A stretch of DNA of 64,000 nt from Cladocopium goreaui (lineage: Eukaryota > Sar > Dinophyceae > Suessiales > Symbiodiniaceae), in contig CAMXCT020002013.1 of assembly GCA_947184155.2 (NCBI GenBank), forward strand, positions 200,001 to 264,000. Direction: 5' to 3'. Below are positions 4,975-14,768 of this stretch, in pieces. The position numbers and the translations under genes are program-made. A model generated the notes under the pieces. The model saw only the letters and a list, made by a program, of their open reading frames with translations, searched no databases and was not told where the DNA came from. Position 1 is the first letter of the stretch; each line of letters starts with the position of its first letter.

Positions 4975-4978
4975 TTTA
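4975..4978. repeat. TTTA target-site duplication, left
   Basis: TTTA immediately before the left inverted repeat. The same four bases follow the right inverted repeat at 14,765-14,768. A 2-bp TT duplication with a one-base longer repeat is the only close alternative. Confidence 0.75.
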
Positions 4979-5654
4979 CTGGATTGTGGAGAGAGGCTGT
5001 TTTTAAAGTTTTTTGTGCGATTTGCTTCTTTGCTGCTTCGAAAATTACCTACAAGCCATTCCTTACACAGAAAAAACAGGTTTCTTATCCAAAGTGTATC
5101 TAATAAATAGGGGTTTGTCTTGAAAAAATGCAGATCATTCTTCCATGTTTGTAGTACCTCAGAAACTGCATCTTAAATATAAATATATATATATACTGGA
5201 AAGATGTGTGCATATTACAGATTAAATTAATCAAATTGTAATATTTCATACTTGATAATTCAAAATGCAAAAAATGGTGCGATTCAAAGTGGAAGCAGTT
5301 CAACTTCATTGAGTGGCAGCTGACAATCATGTGATTCAAAGCCGACAAAGCAGTTTAACTTCGCTTACTGGCAGCTGGCCAGCCCCCATCTGATCATTGA
5401 GCCCTTTGCGACTCTGCAGTCTGCAGTCTCAAGTTTGTTGGTGGCTTGCCCCCTGCTTTTGGAAATCCCCCGGCAGCTGAACCATGGGTTCTTGCATGTC
5501 TTGCTGGTCCTGGTGTGCAAAGGAGCAGCCGCTTCCTGACAGGTTGTGGGTTGCCCGCGACGGCGTTTCTTATCATATCAGCAATGACTGCCAACACATT
5601 GTGAGAAACCCGGCTGATGAAATTTGGACCAGGACCAGGCAAGGAAGTGACAAC
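4979..5654 (+). repeat. left terminal inverted repeat (676 bp)
   Basis: Reverse complement of 14,081-14,764, matching from CTGGATTGTGG to GGAAGTGACAAC. I saw only a few substitutions (near 5,083, 5,365 and 5,592) plus a length change in an internal TA run near 5,180-5,200. After 5,654 the two sides diverge abruptly. It contains one copy of the private 13-mer (5,440-5,452). Open frames inside it appear on both sides simply because the repeat is duplicated. Confidence 0.95.
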
Positions 5655-5963
5655 ATGCGCTACTGTTGCGTGTCGGTGCAATTTTCATTGTTTTTGGTTG
5701 AAAGCTGGCATGTCAAAGGTGCCCACTTTGCTTTCCTGCGCAAGACCAGCGATGATGCAGTGCTGACGAAAAATAGCACCTGACGGTTGTCCCTGGACTT
5801 TGAAAGGGTTGCTTGCAATCATCATTTCGCACAAGCGCGCTCACGGGTACACAGACACATGCATAGGAGAACCAAAGATATGTGATGGCGGCGGAACGTA
5901 GCAGCATCATCAAAAAGTGTGGCATTTACCTGCGAATCTTTGTCAGAGTGTCAGTTGTCGGTA

Positions 5964-5972
<9 letters not shown>

Positions 5973-5997
<25 letters not shown>

Positions 5998-6566
5998 TGT
6001 TTGTCTGCGTCTTCAGTCAAGTGTTTGTTTGCGTCTGCCAGCTTGCCTGTGTTTGCCAGGCCTGTGTCGGCCAGTGTTTTGTATGTATGTTTCTGTCTGT
6101 TTCTGTCTGTTTCTGTCTGTTTCTGTCTCTTACTGTCTGTTACTGTCTGTTACTGTCTGTTACTGTCTGTTGCTGTCTGTTACTGTCGCTTACTGTCGCT
6201 TACTGTCTGCTACTGTCTGTCTGTTACTGTCTGTTACTGTCTGTCACTGTCTGTCACTGTCTGTCACTGTCTGTCACTGTCTGTCACTGTCTGTCACTCT
6301 CTGTCACTGTCTGTCACTGTCTGTCACTGTCTGTCACTGTCTGTCACTGTCTGTCACTGTCTGTCACTGTCTGTCACTGTCTGTCACTGTCTGTCACTGT
6401 CTGTCACTGTCTGTCACTGTCTGTCACTGTCTGCCTCTCTGTCTCTCTGTCTCTCTGTCACTGTCTGTCTGCCTGCCTGTCTGTCTGTCTGTCTGTCCGT
6501 CTGTCCGTCTGTCCGTCCGTCCGTCCGTCTGTCTGTCTGTCTGTCACTGTCTGTCTGTCTGTCACG

Positions 6567-6665
<99 letters not shown>

Positions 6666-6820
6666 ACTGTCTGTCTTATCACTGTCTGTCTGTCTGTCAC
6701 TGTCTGCCTTTCACTGTCTTTCTCTCACTGTCTGTCTGTCACTGTCTGTCTGTCTGTCACTCACTGTCTGTCTGTCTGCCTGCCTGCCTGCCTGTCTGTC
6801 TGTCTGCCTGTCTGTCTGTC
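5973..6820. repeat. CTGT / CTGTCACTGT satellite (0.85 kb)
   Basis: A long run built from CTGT and variants: TTACTGTCTG blocks (6,130-6,240), CTGTCACTGT blocks (6,240-6,430), CCGT variants (about 6,495-6,530) and pure CTGT (6,566-6,664). All three forward frames are open because the unit lacks stop codons, so long Cys/Leu/Ser/Val proteins predicted here are artefacts. It lies between the left inverted repeat and the methyltransferase gene. Confidence 0.95.
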
Positions 6821-7076
6821 AAGATCATCGGTCCACCGACTATCAGTGGTTGTCCATCGAATATATCAGTGGCTATCAGTGTTTGTCGGTGATGGACAGA
6901 TACAGAGACAAACCGACTGAGACAAGTTGGCTCAGCCAGACATGTGTTGTCATGGGCCCCCTTGCAGTGTTAATTGATTCTAGACTATTTGTTTAATTCG
7001 CAACTTTCCATGATAACACTGCAGGCATTTGGCTTGAAGTGAGATCTCAGGACCATTCACGTCTGGAGACCAAGCC

Positions 7077-8888
7077 ATGGACGAGCTGGAACTTGCCCAA
7101 GCTGAGGCTGAGTTTGTCCACGCTGGGCTTGCACAACACAGGGCCGACAGGAAAAGAGGTTCATCCCTCTTGGTGCCGAGACTGCAGTTCAAGCGGCGCC
7201 ACAGGGCCACACGCCTCTTGGGTTTCAAACCCAAAGCATTTCAAGCACAGGGCCCAAAAGCAAAGACTGCAAAAACCACAGCCACAAAAAAGGGTGTCAG
7301 AAGAGCAGTGGCCAAGTACAAGGCTGGCCAGAAGGCCGCCGGGCGACCCACCAGGCCAGGGAAGGGCGAGTTGAAGGCAAGGCAGTTCGATCCGAGGGGA
7401 AATGCTCCGATGATTGTCACTGGCTCAGATTGCTCAGGTCTGGACACTGCTACTGCTGCTTTGAAAATGGCAGGCCTCGAGCCCTGCACGGTGTTCTTGT
7501 CTGAGAAAGATGCCCACACCAGAAAAGTGTTGGAGAGCAATTATGCTACTGGTGGAGCTTATGCAGTCGACGGCATTGGTGGCTTGCCCCATGCTGGCAG
7601 CAAGCCTCGGATTTTCAACAACATCATGGCAAGGGATGATTCCGAGATCAGTGGGGAAATCGACCTCTACACTGCAGGCCCACCCTGGTTTGCAGAATGG
7701 CTTGCAGGATAAACGTGCTGATGTGCTGCTGCGTGTTCTGCAAACGATTAAGACCATTCAGCCCCTGACATTTGCCTTGGAGAATGTCAAACCATTAGCG
7801 CGGCACAAGAAGTTCAAGCTCCTCTTTGATTTCATTTTGGCTTTCCTACGTTCCATCGAAGATGCAAATGGCAAGAAAGTGTACCAAGTGGAATGCAAGG
7901 TTCCCGTTCATTGCAAATTATTTGGTTAATTGTTGATTTGATTTTTAAGCTTCTTGGTTGTCCTGTTGAATCATCATTTTTACGACAATGACAATGCCTT
8001 CTGATGTTCTTGACACAAGCGTTGTAGGTGGCTTGCCCCAAGCGCGGCTACGCACTTACATTGTTGGCTGGAAAATTGCAAAGGCGGACCCTTCCATGAA
8101 ATGGCAGTGGCCAGCCCGCATCCCTTGCAGGAGCGTGTCCAGTTTGCTGGACTGCACAGATGTCTCTGACTTACACCACGGCGTGGCCACGGAGAAAGGC
8201 AAAGCAAGGGTCCAGCAGCACCTGGTGTCAGTCGCCAAAATGATCCAGGATTCCATCCTGAAGTGTTCTGCCACGAAGGCCTGTGTTGGCTCAATCATTT
8301 TTCTTTCTTTGGCTACCGGAAATTGGTCAGCTTTTAGCTCGTCGTTAATAATTTGTTCTGGTTCTTTCCTTGTTAGAACATTGAAAGAATTGCGATTCTG
8401 CATTTGCAGGTACTGAGTGAGTAAAAATAGCCACAGTAACCACTTACATGTTTGGATTGAAGGCGTCACAGGATGCTGTGTGGTGCGCCGATGTGGGGTG
8501 CAGCTTGAAGCGTGGCGCGACAGCCCTGCCTGAAAAGTCACCGACGTTGACGCACAGTCGGTGCAAGTCTGGAGGTCACATGTTGCTACCCATGCAGCGG
8601 TACATGACTTTGAATGAACTTGAAGAACTTCAGGGGTTTCCAGGACGACATTTACGGATCCCTACCGGAGTCAGCAAGAAGAAGTATGCAGGCATGCTTG
8701 GCAACGCTTTCACTGTCAATGTGATCGGCAGGGTTGCGTTGAATTTGCTGAAAATGGTTGGCAAGGTGCCCCCCGAACATTTTGACCCATGGGCAATGCC
8801 GAGCATGAAGCATGACTTTGTCGACTACAGCCGCTTCAGTGGAATGAAGCGCCGCTGCGTGAGGAGAGATGGTCACACAGACTCATAG
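7077..8888 (+). pseudogene. C5-cytosine DNA methyltransferase, catalytic motif lost
   Basis: C5 methyltransferases transfer a methyl group from S-adenosylmethionine to cytosine in DNA. From ATG at 7,077 a Lys/Arg-rich N-terminus (residues 20-110) precedes motif I (TGSDCSGLDTATAALKMAGL, residues 115-134) and an SEKD acidic motif. Motif IV begins EIDLYTAGPP (to residue 203), but the Cys-Gln that must follow is absent. The reading continues only in another frame as GLQNGLQDKRADVLLRVLQ and LTFALENVKPL (motif VI, ENV). Motif VIII is GGLPQARLRTYIVGW (8,027-8,073). Motifs IX-X lie in 8,460-8,760 (SPTLTHSR, LQGFPG, GMLGNAFTVNVIG). Two introns are likely, about 7,900-7,990 and 8,270-8,465; boundaries are uncertain. 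The lesion at about 7,687 removes the nucleophile and shifts frame, so this copy is probably inactive. Confidence 0.85.
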
Positions 8889-8889
8889 A

Positions 8890-9480
8890 CAGAGAAGTTT
8901 GCAACATCTGAATTTGGTTTGGGTGGCTTGCCCCATTCCTCAAATTTGGCTTTGATTTTTGTTTTTGGTGCCTTGCCCCATACCAATTCTGAAATTAGGC
9001 TCTGCTGGCAGTTCTAGCCGCCTTTTTTGTGAGCTGTTACATTGGTGGCTTGCATCATGGAACTTGCCCTCCGTAATTCATAATTCAGTGGTGCAAACTA
9101 GTGCTACCATCATCAATTCGTGATTGCAGAGCGGTGCATTGCCACCTTGTGGAACCTTCGGAAAAGTATAGTGCCTCTGCGTCGCGAGATTTAGCTGAGC
9201 ACACGCTCAAGCAAGGTCTTAGAACTGACAGTAGGTAGTCGGAGAATTTCTCTTTGGGGGGTACTATGACAATGCATGCGTGCCCATGCCGCTGCTTGGC
9301 TGCTTCAAACAAGTAGACATCAGTTGTTTGGACTGGTGGCCGGTGGCTTGCACCGCCTGCAGGGACACAAGGCCCAACTCATGGAGGATTTACTGCCAGA
9401 GCACATGGATGTTGAACAATGCTTGCAGGACCGAGTGTTAATTGGCGAGATCGATTTTGCAGGTTATAATTGAAAAACTC
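8890..9480. other. spacer with 13-mer copies between the two transposon genes
   Basis: No convincing gene. It holds four copies or variants of GGTGGCTTGCCCC (8,922, 8,967, 9,044, 9,342). An open frame at 9,276-9,473 ends with LLPEHMDVEQCLQDRVLIGE and could be an exon, but nothing ties it to a neighbour. Confidence 0.5.
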
Positions 9481-9489
9481 AAAGTTAGA

Positions 9490-9965
9490 CAGAAATAGAT
9501 TCTCTCGACAGCCGGGCGCCCCATCGATGTACAGAGGAGGCTCAGATCAATTGTTTTTTAAACAAATATTTTGCCAATTCCAGGGACCAGCCCCTCTGGA
9601 CAGTCGGAGCGCCCCAGACTGTCCAGAGCTGGCTCTGGACAGTTGGGGGCATCCCCGACTGTCCAGAGACCCTCCCAGAAGGTCCTCAAAACACAGTTTA
9701 ACAGTAAAAAGGGTGCGAAAAAAAAAAAAAACTCCAAATAACAAATCGCAGACCTGCTGTGTCCAGAGCACTTCTGGATCCAGGAGGTCTTGTCGACAGT
9801 TGGGGGCGCCCCGGACTGTCCAGAGGAAACTTTTCACTCATTTTTCTTGACTTTTGAAAATTTCAAAAGTCAAGAAAAATGATGGAAAAGTTTCCTCTGG
9901 ACAGGCGCCCCCAACTGTTCAGAAGACTTCCCGGATCCAGAGGTGCTCTCGACAGGAACTCCGTT
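9490..9965. repeat. nested palindrome cluster
   Basis: Short palindromes of the type CTCTGGACAGT-GGGGGCGCCCC-ACTGTCCAGAG recur at about 9,596-9,630, 9,634-9,668 and 9,795-9,826. A larger hairpin has arms of roughly 100 bp (about 9,757-9,858 and 9,860-9,962). Its inner 40 bp (CAGAGGAAACTTTTC to TTGACTTTTGAAA and back) are nearly perfect. It lies directly upstream of the transposase gene. It could be a nested foldback element or a block of transposase-binding sites. Confidence 0.8.
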
Positions 9966-10052
9966 CGAGAAATGGAGTTTTTGCAAATCACGGCCTTAGC
10001 TCTGGACAGTGCCAACATGGGTCTCAAATGCTGTTTTTTCTTGAATTTGCCA

Positions 10053-12315
10053 GGACTTCAGGCCAGAGCAGATCGAGCCTGTGACAGACTTTGGCAAGAA
10101 ATGGAAAAGACTTGGGCCCAGATGGGTGGCACAGTACCCTTGGCTACACTGCACAAGGAACCGAGCTGGAGAAGTGAACAGTGTGTACTGTAAGGCATGC
10201 AAGCTTCATGGCAAGTTCCACGCTGAGTTTCGAACAGTGTCCTCGTTGCAGAAGGCGCACTTCGATAAACATGAGCGAGCTAAGAGCCACAGGATAGCAG
10301 TTTCTGATCCTGACGTTCGCTTGGCCCTTGTTGCCCCTCCAGTTGCTGCTTTCGTGGAAGCTCTGCGTTTGGTCCGCCAGGGTAAAGCAGGAGGGGCTGA
10401 AGGCACCGGAACTTTGAAACGTGACAAGTTGCTCAAAGCTAAGTATTGCTTGGCTGAAGCTTTAAAGTTTCAAACTCGCAGGGACTTGAGGAGTTGCAAT
10501 TGTTTGACTTTGCACTCGGATGCTTCCACAGGGAAACTACTTTTGCGTGTGCAAGGTTGTGGCCCACAGCTGCGGCCAGTTCATGCTTTGGTGGGGTGCC
10601 AAAAGCTTGAAGACTTTGACTCCCACGGCATTGCCAAATGTGTCTTGCTGATGTTGGCGGATTTGTGCTCACCATTCAAGCACAGCGAATCCTTTGAAAC
10701 GAGCCAGGCGCTGAATGAAGATGTCACCTCCATGGACAAAGCTTTGTTGGCCCATCTCTTTGAGATCACAGAGGTCTTCAACGCAGACGCAGCTGCAGAT
10801 GAGCAATTGGCTGGCCAGATCCTTGAATCTGGTAATAATAGATTCCTGGAGGCTTGCCCCGGAACTTGTCCTGCCTTGCTTGAAGCTTTGGATGTGAACA
10901 TGGCTACATTCTCAGAAGTGTTCCCAAACTTGAAGGTCATCAACAAAGACAAGCCCCATGCCGCCCGTAGGATTGTCAGCCGGACATGGAAATGCGACCG
11001 TGTCCTCGACCAAATTGTGAAGAAAGTGTTCATGGACACCGATGGCATTGTGCAACAGATTCATTTCTCCGATGTGTTGCGGTCCATGTATGCCCAGAAC
11101 GTTCGAGCCATGCAGCTCACCCCCTTGTGGAATGAGATTTCGGACAAATTTTCTGCAGCGAAGCACCGATTCGATTCGTGGAGCATGCCCTTTGCTAAAG
11201 TTTGCCTCACGCTAGATGCTGTGATCCGAACAGCCCAGTCTGCCCATGAAGAGAGGAAAAATGAAAAGGTTGGCCACGCAGCTCGGACATTCTTAGACCT
11301 TCTGTCTGAGAAAACAGGTTTGCTCATTGGGATGCTTGCTGATGCTGGAGAGGAAAATCTGCAGTTGACCAGGCGCTTGGATTCTGAGAGAACCACGTCA
11401 GGAAGCCTTGCCATTGCAGTGCAGCAGTTTGTCATGAAGTTGGAGGTGCTGTTTCTGAAAGGAGCAGTCGTGAAGACTGGCTACACAGCCCACCTTTTGG
11501 ACCAATTGCAGAAGCCACGGACGATATACATTGACAAAGTGGCCAAACGGTTCGGTGGCTTGCCCCAGCCGCAGATGGCGACGGTCGTTTACCGATGCTT
11601 GAAACGCTGTGCTTCCTGGGTGCAGCTAGCGCAGGAAGTGGTCGCAACGGAGTTTCCAGCGTTTGAGATTTTGCAGTCTATGTCCATTTTCCATTTGGAA
11701 TCGTTGAATGACAAAGTGCACAGAAGAGACGACCACAGGACTGAAGCACGAGATGTTAGCGATAAGATCCACAAAGTGTCAAACGTTTTGTCCTTGGATG
11801 AGTGCGCGCTGTCAAGCCAGTTTGCAGACTACCACCCTGTAGCTCAGCACAAGTTTGAATCCGCTGCAGACATGGAACCAGTGATGGCCTGGAAAGCAGC
11901 TTTGGATACAGTTCTGGAGGACAAGCGAAATCTCCAGCACCAGCCCCAAGAGGAACTCAGGCAGGCTCTGAGTAGAGCTATTGGCTGGGGCTGCTCCAGT
12001 TCGGGTGTGGAGCAAAACTTTGCAGGTGTCCGAACATTGACAAAAAACAAAGGAAACATGACGGAAGTGAACCTGAGGGATGAAATTTTCCTCTTGACCA
12101 CACAAAATTGGACCGAAACTCAAGACCAGGAGTTGGCAAAGGCTGCTGCGGTGATTTGGTCTCAACTTTTTGGGACAGTGAAAGCCGCAAGTTCCAAAGA
12201 CTCAGTCTTAAGATCTGTAGCAGCGCAGCGTGGGTGGAAGAAAAGGGCCAGAGAAGGCACATGGCAAGCGCCTTGTTTCAAAACTAGTTTCATGTGCTCA
12301 ACACTCAAAATTTAG
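10053..12315 (+). CDS. transposase, BED finger plus RNase-H-like core
   Basis: The long open frame begins after a pyrimidine-rich acceptor (TTGAATTTGCCAG|G at 10,052). No in-frame ATG precedes the conserved region, so a first exon upstream (perhaps around 9,973-10,030) is expected. Counting from codon 10,081, Cys37-x2-Cys40 and His64-x5-His70 form a BED/TTF-type DNA-binding finger. LTLHSDASTGKLLLRVQG (about 142-159) could hold the first catalytic Asp. The C-terminal GCSSSGVEQNFAGVRTLTK resembles the hAT dimerisation segment (SSA-x-ER-x-FS). No helicase, integrase HHCC or reverse-transcriptase motif was seen. Transposition is the inferred role; the superfamily is not certain. The frame ends at 12,315, but exons probably continue past it (next entry). 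Confidence 0.75.
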
Positions 12316-12334
12316 ATCATTTTGAACAAAGATT

Positions 12335-13271
12335 TTGCTTACTAAGGCTTTTCGGAGGCAACGTGCTGCTGCAGTGGCGCAGGAAGTGAAAAAATGCGGA
12401 GATGACCCGACACCAGGATTTTTGGTCCACGAAAACGAGCATTGGACACAAGAACATGAGAAAGAAACGCAGTTACAAAAAAAAAGGCGTAAAGAACGTG
12501 CTTTGGAAGCAGCTGCTCGCAATGGGCTTACACCGGAAGAAAAACTCAATGAAATAGGTCCAGACCATGAGCAAGCCGTGGAGGACTTCAAAGCTGCGAG
12601 AAGTCAGAAAGTGAGAAGCTACTTGGCCCAAAAAATCCGAGACACAAAGAAAAAAGAGAAAGCTGCGGCATCAATTTTTTCTTTGTGCAGTGGCAAGAAA
12701 GTTTTGATTTCAACAATCCAAGCCGCTCCAAGCCTTGTGCTGGACCAGCACATGGACAAGTTGGGTGCAAAATATCTTCCCTTCTGCGTGCGGACGCGTT
12801 TGTTGTTCCAGATGTCACAGATCCTGCTGCAGAAACTTTGTGGCACGCATTCCTTTCCGGAGGTTTGCTCCTCAGCCCTCAAGCGTTTAGTCATGGCGAG
12901 GGACCAGCTGTGAAGTATTGCTGTGCGGTCAGCACCCCACGACTGTTTACATCAGCAGCGGTTTTCAAGAAGGAAACCCTCACTTGTGTGCAGCTATCAC
13001 TGGCCGCATGCAGCAGTTGTGCAATATGTGGAAACTCTTGAAAGACATGCCTTTGTTTCTTCAATGCTTGCAGAAAGCGCAACTTCGCCACAGACCGTCT
13101 GCCGAGCTTGTCGCTTTTGTCACCCAGAAAGAAAGCAAACAAATTCTGTCAGTCCTTGGTGTTACCGGCCAGCCCACAACTGGTCTATGCTGCAAGTTCT
13201 TGACCAGAACAAACGCAGCTGATTTTTTATGTAAAGTTGAATTTGCTAAGCATGGTTTATGTGGTCGCTGA
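12335..13271 (+). CDS. downstream exons of the transposase gene
   Basis: After TTGCTTACTAAG|G (12,345) a charged, coiled-coil-like exon runs to about 12,665 (RRQRAAAVAQEVKKCGDD; EEKLNEIGPDHEQAVEDF). A second acceptor TTCTTTGTGCAG|T (12,690) opens WQESFDFNNPSRSKPCAGPA through PDVTDPAAETLWHAFLSGG. Near 12,940 the best reading changes frame to TTVYISSGFQEGNPHLCAA and LLKDMPLFLQCLQKAQLRHR. This implies a small intron or a one-base frameshift in the CACCCCAC run. Terminus not determined. The part is assigned to the transposase gene from position and strand only; it could be a separate gene. Confidence 0.5.
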
Positions 13272-14080
13272 TTCGAGCATTTATAACAGTAATCATAATC
13301 AATTCATAACACAGCAATTTCGTAAGGTTTCAGTGAAGTCACCACATAATTTCTTCATTAGATAATTTGGTGCGTATAATTCAGGATTGAGAGTGGGATG
13401 GTGGCTTGCCCCTCCTAATCATTAATTTGTTTCCATGACGCTGCCCCCCAGTAGCGCTATAGGTCATGGGCCTGGTGGCTTGCCCCGGTTTGATATTTTT
13501 GCATTTATATTAAAAATCAATAGTTTTTTTGGACATTCTCTTTCAGCTTCTCCCCACAATCCCGCTTGTATTTCCATCCGCGGAAAGAAAAATTGCAGCC
13601 GCGGACTGTCTGAAACGCGATAGTAAGTGCAAGTAACTAGCCGTCAACCACTGTCTGAGTCACTGGTGCATATACGAGAGTTGCTAAGATTTGGGTTACA
13701 AGTTGGGCCTTCAGACCTGGAACTGGCTACGCGGTGAGGCTCAAACCGGACCTCAGGTTTGACTGCAGGGTGTAGTAACAATGACACACAGACAGGAAGA
13801 TGAAACCGACAGCACCAGCAACTACAAGTTTCCAGCAATAGTTTCTTTACCTGCACTTACATGAAAATAAGCAGTGTCACAGATCATCACTTCTTCAACT
13901 TCAACTTAGCCGCTTAGCTGCTCCGACCATGGGGAAACCAGGTGCTGGCAAGGGAAGCCAGGGTCGCCGTCCCAAGGGCGATGCAGCGAAGCATAAGGGT
14001 AACGGATCTGGTGGCTTGTGCCCCATCCCAGAAGTGAGCCTTCTGGATTGGGCGGCACAGTCCAAATGCCACGTAGTCAC
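13272..14080. other. transposon 3' internal region
   Basis: No secure gene. Private 13-mer copies lie at 13,400, 13,474 and (with two extra bases) 14,010. A short frame from ATG at 13,929 reads MGKPGAGKGSQGRRPKGDAA and looks like a basic protein start, but it runs into the right inverted repeat and ends at 14,162. Confidence 0.45.
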
Positions 14081-14764
14081 GTTGTCACTTCCTTGCCTGG
14101 TCCTGGTCCAAATTTCATCAGCCGGGTTTCTCACAATGTGTTGGGAGTCATTGCTGATATGATAAGAAACGCCGTCGCGGGCAACCCACAACCTGTCAGG
14201 AAGCGGCTGCTCCTTTGCACACCAGGACCAGCAAGACATGCAAGAACCCATGGTTCAGCTGCCGGGGGATTTCCAAAAGCAGGGGGCAAGCCACCAACAA
14301 ACTTGAGACTGCAGACTGCAGAGTCGCAAAGGGCTCAATGATCAGATGGGGGCTGGCCAGCTGCCAGTAAGTGAAGTTAAACTGCTTTGTCGGCTTTGAA
14401 TCACATGATTGTCAGCTGCCACTCAATGAAGTTGAACTGCTTCCACTTTGAATCGCACCATTTTTTGCATTTTGAATTATCAAGTATGAAATATTACAAT
14501 TTGATTAATTTAATCTGTAATATGCACACATCTTTCCAATATATATATAAATATATATATATATATTTAAGATGCAGTTTCTGAGGTACTACAAACATGG
14601 AAGAATGATCTGCATTTTTTCAAGACAAACCCCTATTTATTAGATACACTTTGGATAAGAAACTTGTTTTTTCTGTGTAAGGAATGGCTTGTAGGTAATT
14701 TTCGAAGCAGCAAAGAAGCAAATCGCACAAAAAACTTTAAAAACAGCCTCTCTCCACAATCCAG
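14081..14764 (-). repeat. right terminal inverted repeat (684 bp)
   Basis: Mirror image of 4,979-5,654, ending CCTCTCTCCACAATCCAG, followed by TTTA. It is slightly longer than the left copy because of a TA microsatellite around 14,540-14,570. Confidence 0.95.
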
Positions 14765-14768
14765 TTTA
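14765..14768. repeat. TTTA target-site duplication, right
   Basis: Matches the TTTA at 4,975-4,978. Removing the transposon and one copy gives a continuous site GGCTATTTACCCTGCC. Confidence 0.75.

Follow-up and report, generated by a model that had tools for sequence, protein, structure and literature searches.

Mobile elements that carry cytosine-modifying enzymes have been reported from several hosts. The DNA transposon Mariner-1_OLpv encodes a transposase and a C5-cytosine methylase; the passages on it in Bao & Jurka (2013, PMC3627910) describe a mariner transposase, TA duplications, an extra endonuclease and a location in a phycodnavirus genome. In Symbiodinium, the transposable elements SymbioLINE-Dnmt and SymbioDIRS-Dnmt3 bear C5 methyltransferases under purifying selection (de Mendoza et al. 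2018, PMC5890265), and sections of that report describe them as moving by reverse transcription with intronless DNA methyltransferases (DNMTs). Fungal DNA transposons, some of them hAT elements such as hAT7, carry TET/JBP enzymes, and in some hAT7 families the TET/JBP gene precedes the transposase gene and points the same way (PMC12730594, in its part on these elements). Here, in a 64,000-nucleotide stretch of Cladocopium goreaui DNA (assembly GCA_947184155.2, contig CAMXCT020002013.1, positions 200,001 to 264,000; hereafter the window), it was found that a transposon with terminal inverted repeats (TIRs) of ~680 bp carried both a C5-methyltransferase gene and a transposase gene. It differs from Mariner-1_OLpv in its hAT-like predicted fold, 4-bp duplications, nuclear location and introns; no endonuclease was detected in the six open reading frames scanned, and the mariner rule of TA duplication did not hold, the duplicated words being 4 bp long without a TA rule. 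Unlike SymbioLINE and SymbioDIRS, it has TIRs, a transposase and an intron-bearing methyltransferase gene, and no reverse transcriptase was found in its six main open frames scanned. Whereas TET/JBP enzymes oxidize 5-methylcytosine, as stated in the same part of PMC12730594, the enzyme here would make it, and the hosts differ.

In the literature on transposon-borne methyltransferases, on hAT duplications and on dinoflagellate hAT elements, of which our coverage was incomplete, with subscription papers and preprints largely outside it, we found no C5 methyltransferase in any nuclear cut-and-paste element; the portions of PMC12344493 and PMC11244446 covered also describe none. The original prediction, made from the letters of the window, had called such an element not a standard category, which was nearly right, the exception being the C5 methylase of a viral mariner described in 2013 (PMC3627910, in the part on that element). 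A DNA transposon with a DNMT therefore has a viral precedent, and what is new here is a TIR transposon of hAT-like fold with unusual duplications and a retained DNMT. The most far-reaching reading, to which we give a probability of about 0.5, is that the element represents a new hAT-fold lineage, with 4-bp duplications and very long TIRs, in which a DNMT is a permanent, self-methylating part within a hypermethylated dinoflagellate genome. The anatomy as described below, with the methyltransferase as a retained and constrained component of the element, has high confidence.

The element spans positions 4979..14764 of the window (9,786 bp), starting with CTGGATTGTGGA and ending with TCCACAATCCAG. 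By inverted-repeat comparison, the left TIR (~680 bp, opening with CTGGATTGTGGAGAGAGGCTGTTTTTAAAG) was placed at 4979..5657 on the + strand and the right TIR at 14078..14764 on the − strand. Their arms pair as 4978-5195/14548-14765 and 5174-5657/14078-14561, each 99% complementary, and end to end the two repeats were 98.0% alike over 687 columns. Reading of the flanks gave the target-site duplication TTTA at 4975..4978 on the left and at 14765..14768 on the right. Both genes lie on the + strand of the window. The inverted repeats of ~680 bp, the TTTA flanks and the common strand of the two genes, all of which had been predicted, were borne out, and the central claim holds: the element is complete, is of cut-and-paste type and includes a gene for a C5 methyltransferase.

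The assembly (1.17 Gb, 6,202 contigs) was searched with the left TIR, which matched 24 places. Sixteen of them form eight loci with paired TIRs, a lower bound for the 1.17 Gb, which were designated family A: C2013 (the window), C296, C464, C547, C3803, C1181, C4143 and C427. Another six places belong to family B, in which C2646 and C1227 have both ends, and C3285 and C4966 one end. The TIR places on C1016 and C2563 were left out of the locus count as duplicate or allelic contigs, which also bear the element: C1016 matched C464 at 99.7% identity across 10.7 kb, of which 2 kb was flank, and no second end was found for it, and C2563 matched C427 at 97.8% identity across 10.0 kb, of which 120 bp was flank. 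The search for full copies that had been proposed as a check was thereby answered with eight paired A loci and two both-ended B elements. A perfect 4-bp duplication was observed in all ten both-ended elements, each with a different word (TTTA, GAAG, TCAA, TGTT, TTCC, TAAT, CCTC and AATA in family A; TTTC and TATA in family B). TIRs together with a duplication of fixed length at varied sites, as in cut-and-paste transposition, were thus seen in 10/10 elements, and the sequences show that insertion takes place at varied targets and duplicates 4 bp. Because each of the eight separate paired-TIR places had its own 4-bp duplication, chance or mis-assembly was considered very unlikely, and an assembly artefact was rejected on the eight separate places with their differing flanks and duplications.

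Seven full A copies were 97.7–99.6% identical and 9.60–9.79 kb long. The eighth (C427:176433-201333) measured 24.9 kb, with a nested insertion near element position 8534. Families A and B had only the outer ~70–150 bp of the TIR in common, and their nucleotide identity in matching coding parts was 66–76%. The gene order of C2646 and C1227 was like that of A (TIR, methyltransferase, transposase, TIR), a nested insertion splitting the methyltransferase gene of C1227. C4966 is a fragment: the 10 kb read there lacked both the methyltransferase and the first, N-terminal half of the transposase.

The methyltransferase gene section (METHYLTRANSFERASE) was read as a three-exon gene, as joined in C296. 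Exon 1 (7077..7899, + strand) runs from the first ATG, an inferred start, to ...CECK and includes motif I; PPCQ is held in exon 1 of six of the eight A copies. Exon 2 (GLPQARLRTYIVGW; 8006..8278, + strand) has a GC-type donor, and the AG of its acceptor is AT in the window copy (GAT, vs GAG in C296). Exon 3 (8463..8888, + strand) contains motifs IX-X, with MLGNAFTV, and a stop at 8886-8888. The joined exons of C296 encode 501 aa, of which residues 106–448 matched PF00145 at 4.7e-32, confirming the predicted C5-methyltransferase identity; a Pfam scan of this protein revealed no domain besides PF00145. The C5-methyltransferase motifs I, IV (PCQ), VI (ENV), VIII and IX-X were all recognized in C296. 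The nearest solved structure by sequence was M.HhaI (1.1e-8), and DNMT2 was also among the structures matched (3.1e-7). The methyltransferase P0016, which probably comes from automated gene modelling of the C2563 contig, has both exon joints too; the exon 1-2 joint agrees, and compared with the C296 model P0016 has five extra residues at the second joint, with other parts left out. Close to the end of exon 3, C296, C3803 and C464 differ by 2 bp from the remaining five A copies. Since those five and P0016 have the longer exon 3 state, it may be C296 whose C-terminal tail has changed.

It was found that 8/8 paired-TIR A loci and 2/2 both-ended B elements carried the methyltransferase gene; the original prediction thereby passed its own refuting test, whether all further copies with these TIRs would lack the gene. 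The idea that the gene is a passenger of one copy was rejected, as all eight A loci and the sister family B have it. Codon comparison between A and B was limited to the parts aligned by tblastn. Between C296 and C2646, synonymous differences were saturated (proportion of synonymous differences, pS, 0.80 and 0.83), and the proportion of non-synonymous differences (pN) reached 0.289 over 405 codons of the methyltransferase and 0.244 over 739 codons of the transposase. Parts from C1227 and C3285 gave pN of 0.24–0.30, and C4966 gave 0.24 (part of the transposase). Among close A copies, the ratio of non-synonymous to synonymous substitution rates (dN/dS) was 0.33–0.53 for the methyltransferase (4 rows) and 0.70–1.54 for the transposase (3 rows). 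The motifs PPCQ, ENV, PQxR and GNAFT were conserved between A and B. At the sequence level, these results showed that the methyltransferase is present across A and B and that non-synonymous change in both proteins is far below synonymous change, suggesting that both genes have been kept by selection.

The main transposase open frame (10045..12312, + strand, 756 aa) has a hAT-like predicted fold, and an acceptor-like CAG suggested that the exon starts at 10054. A probable C-terminal exon region (12326..13271, + strand) is split between frames in the window copy, with putative joints, and a portion is similar to the C-terminal portion of the relative P0012. In the predicted fold, the RNase H core bears a large helical insertion, like that of Hermes. 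The candidate catalytic residues are D159, D248 and E656; D248 was invariant in a 16-row alignment, and D159 and E656 were conserved by eye where the rows reach. Foldseek gave no match at E≤0.001, the best being MutS (9.3e-3) and ISCth4 (1.1e-2); the hAT reading rests on a second structural aligner. No PDB chain was obtained at E≤10 with the transposase sequence profile, and no hAT Pfam model, such as that of the hAT dimerisation domain, was matched by any of 16 sequences, the families matched at E≤1 numbering 12. A weak match to zf-C17orf113 was observed in 7/16 at E≤1 (best 2.4e-5), the value for the window copy, 0.019, being below the curated cut-off. Of the BED-finger/RNase-H-like transposase in the original prediction, the transposase with an RNase-H-like predicted fold therefore stood, and the BED finger amounts to this weak zf-C17orf113 match.

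The TIRs of hAT elements are typically short. Those of fungal hAT elements measure 18–20 bp, according to sections of PMC6710886, which also report the capture of a histone gene; this is a precedent for gene capture, not for a methyltransferase. The usual hAT duplication is 8 bp, with 5, 6 and 7 bp known (PMC12730594, in the part concerned). Compared with hAT elements such as Hermes, Ac and hobo, the present element has ~680-bp TIRs, no hit to hAT Pfam models and 4-bp duplications, neither 8 bp nor the 5–7 bp variants being seen in any of the ten both-ended elements. An ordinary hAT was not accepted, on the grounds of duplication length and the lack of hAT sequence matches. The 4-bp duplications also widen the known behaviour of the Hermes-like transposase core.

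When the genome was searched with the transposase, at least 67 matches were obtained (59 of 325 candidates scored), and at least 34 places had relatives at 27–32% identity, which suggests a larger, recently active transposon family. Such relatives were present on C6155, C510, C164, C2891, C417 and C2460, among others, and several of their frames were ~1,000 aa long with near-equal scores. At L047 (C2391:609400-613400), two open frames of 559 and 310 aa on the minus strand were observed, lying upstream of one such distant relative of the transposase.

For the function of the two proteins together, the following scheme is proposed. The transposase would bind and pair the long TIRs, excise the element and re-insert it by DDE chemistry. 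The methyltransferase would be made by intact copies and act in trans, methylating cytosines of the element DNA around excision and insertion; new copies would thereby carry the default CG methylation of the host and not be handled as foreign. Alternatively, methylation of the TIRs would tune transposase binding. CG methylation is the default in Symbiodiniaceae, and most CGs are methylated in Symbiodinium, as portions of PMC5890265 report; passing as host DNA was raised there for retrotransposon cDNA. That trans-acting methylation of element DNA aids new copies or tunes transposase binding is a tentative proposal, possible but somewhat less than an even bet, and tuning of binding, self-limitation and action on RNA are alternatives still in contention.

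A number of observations weigh against an active, self-methylating element. The window copy has a 20-bp deletion in exon 1 that changes AGPPCQPFSM to AGPPWFAEW and shifts the frame; the catalytic motif is absent from its own methyltransferase, and a working enzyme in this copy was not supported. C547 has lost PPCQ by the identical deletion, and these two copies, which are separate insertions, share the deletion and 27 sites that are absent from the other five copies aligned. As the deletion is shared at different targets, an element with a dead enzyme has apparently moved, and the enzyme would not be needed in cis. Gene conversion could be an alternative account of the stretch common to the two copies, and 17 of the 27 sites fall at 7654-9272. 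It was also observed that 20 sites elsewhere or near 7654-9272 group C547 with C4143. This mosaic pattern hints at gene conversion or recombination between copies. Most of the copies seem decayed. With C296 as the reference, for which the count is zero by construction, stops apart, a frameshifting indel in exon 1 was found in 7/8 A copies. The B copy C2646 is frameshifted near the end of the methyltransferase, the first 77 methyltransferase residues had no match in B by tblastn, and 3/8 A copies have an unbroken main transposase frame. C464:49920-59786 and C1016:14300-24285 are near-identical contigs of one insertion. The transposase frame is open in C1016 (756 aa), whereas C464 has a 4-bp deletion there; this speaks against the decay counts, since a share of the frameshifts may reflect allelic differences or mistakes in the assembly. 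No methyltransferase was found within 4 kb upstream of 4/4 distant transposase relatives (C158, C2391, C6155 and C1244). Judging by this small sample (n=4), the gene seems to be a mark of the A/B lineage and not of the transposase family at large. CpG transitions among seven copies, taken as independent, were 2.0 times as frequent as those at other C/G sites (30/4,301 vs 99/27,930, p 0.0025), and the CpG transversion excess among them was not significant (p 0.29). The observed/expected CpG ratio by element region (0.32–0.63) overlapped that of the flanks (0.50–0.67). The CpG pattern shows nothing special to the element: CpG decay was mildly raised, and a strong self-methylation signature, which had been considered, was not found in the copies.

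The apparent spread of an element with a dead enzyme, the exon 1 frameshifts in most A copies and the four sampled relatives without the gene upstream would all fit a methyltransferase that is a host or virus gene, caught once in the A/B ancestor and hitch-hiking with no role in transposition. Such a passenger is quite unlikely, considering that the A–B pN is 0.29 despite saturated synonymous sites, near the transposase value, that dN/dS within A is 0.33–0.53 for the methyltransferase vs 0.70–1.54 for the transposase, and that the four motifs are conserved between the families. The enzyme could instead act on RNA, like DNMT2, with the element transcripts as substrate. RNA methylation was proposed for the SymbioLINE enzyme, for which no de novo DNA methylation was seen in yeast (PMC5890265), and DNMT2 is among the structures matched here. 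However, M.HhaI outscored DNMT2 over a longer stretch and PF00145 spans the whole catalytic domain, which makes an RNA cytosine methyltransferase very doubtful. The enzyme could also be directed at the host, dampening or reshaping silencing, or holding copy number low so that the element persists. Slowed transposition was among the options raised for retrotransposon DNMTs (PMC5890265), and few copies were found, with at least eight A loci of paired TIRs in 1.17 Gb. Copy number can be low for many reasons, however, and a host target is regarded as unlikely.

Cytosine methylation is the usual weapon against transposons. An element with its own constrained methyltransferase suggests that an element may benefit from being methylated in a genome whose CGs are methylated by default. 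Alongside the DNMTs already published from retrotransposons of such algae, it points to repeated recruitment across unrelated element classes. If the reading of a new hAT-fold lineage is true, mobile elements of dinoflagellates would have recruited a DNMT once more, and no nuclear cut-and-paste transposon is known to have done so before.

The origin of the enzyme was also examined. Among viral stretches with transposase patterns, 0/45 proved to be a relative. An alignment of nine environmental relatives, from which the element's own protein was left out (A3), was used in further searches: relatives at 24–31% identity were encoded in 7/18 viral stretches, and in 0/35 prokaryotic stretches. The A3 protein search yielded 704 proteins; among the 120 listed, one at 39% was labelled as coming from a bacterial metagenome-assembled genome, on a 2.8-kb contig. 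The P0029 sequence matches the B copies. In a tree of 34 methyltransferases, A, P0029 and 10 environmental relatives fell within a 15-row group with support of 85/89, below the tool's star.

Two further features of the element were noted. Between the left TIR and the methyltransferase gene lies a pyrimidine-rich tandem array with units TCTG / CTGTCTGTCA (6092..6820), which varies among copies, gaps between copies clustering there. Immediately 5' of the transposase exon, a near-perfect palindrome of ~195 bp (9760..9954) with nested arms of 51 and 44 nt was present in 7/8 A copies, namely the seven aligned, and could be a nested fold-back element or a source of hairpin RNA.

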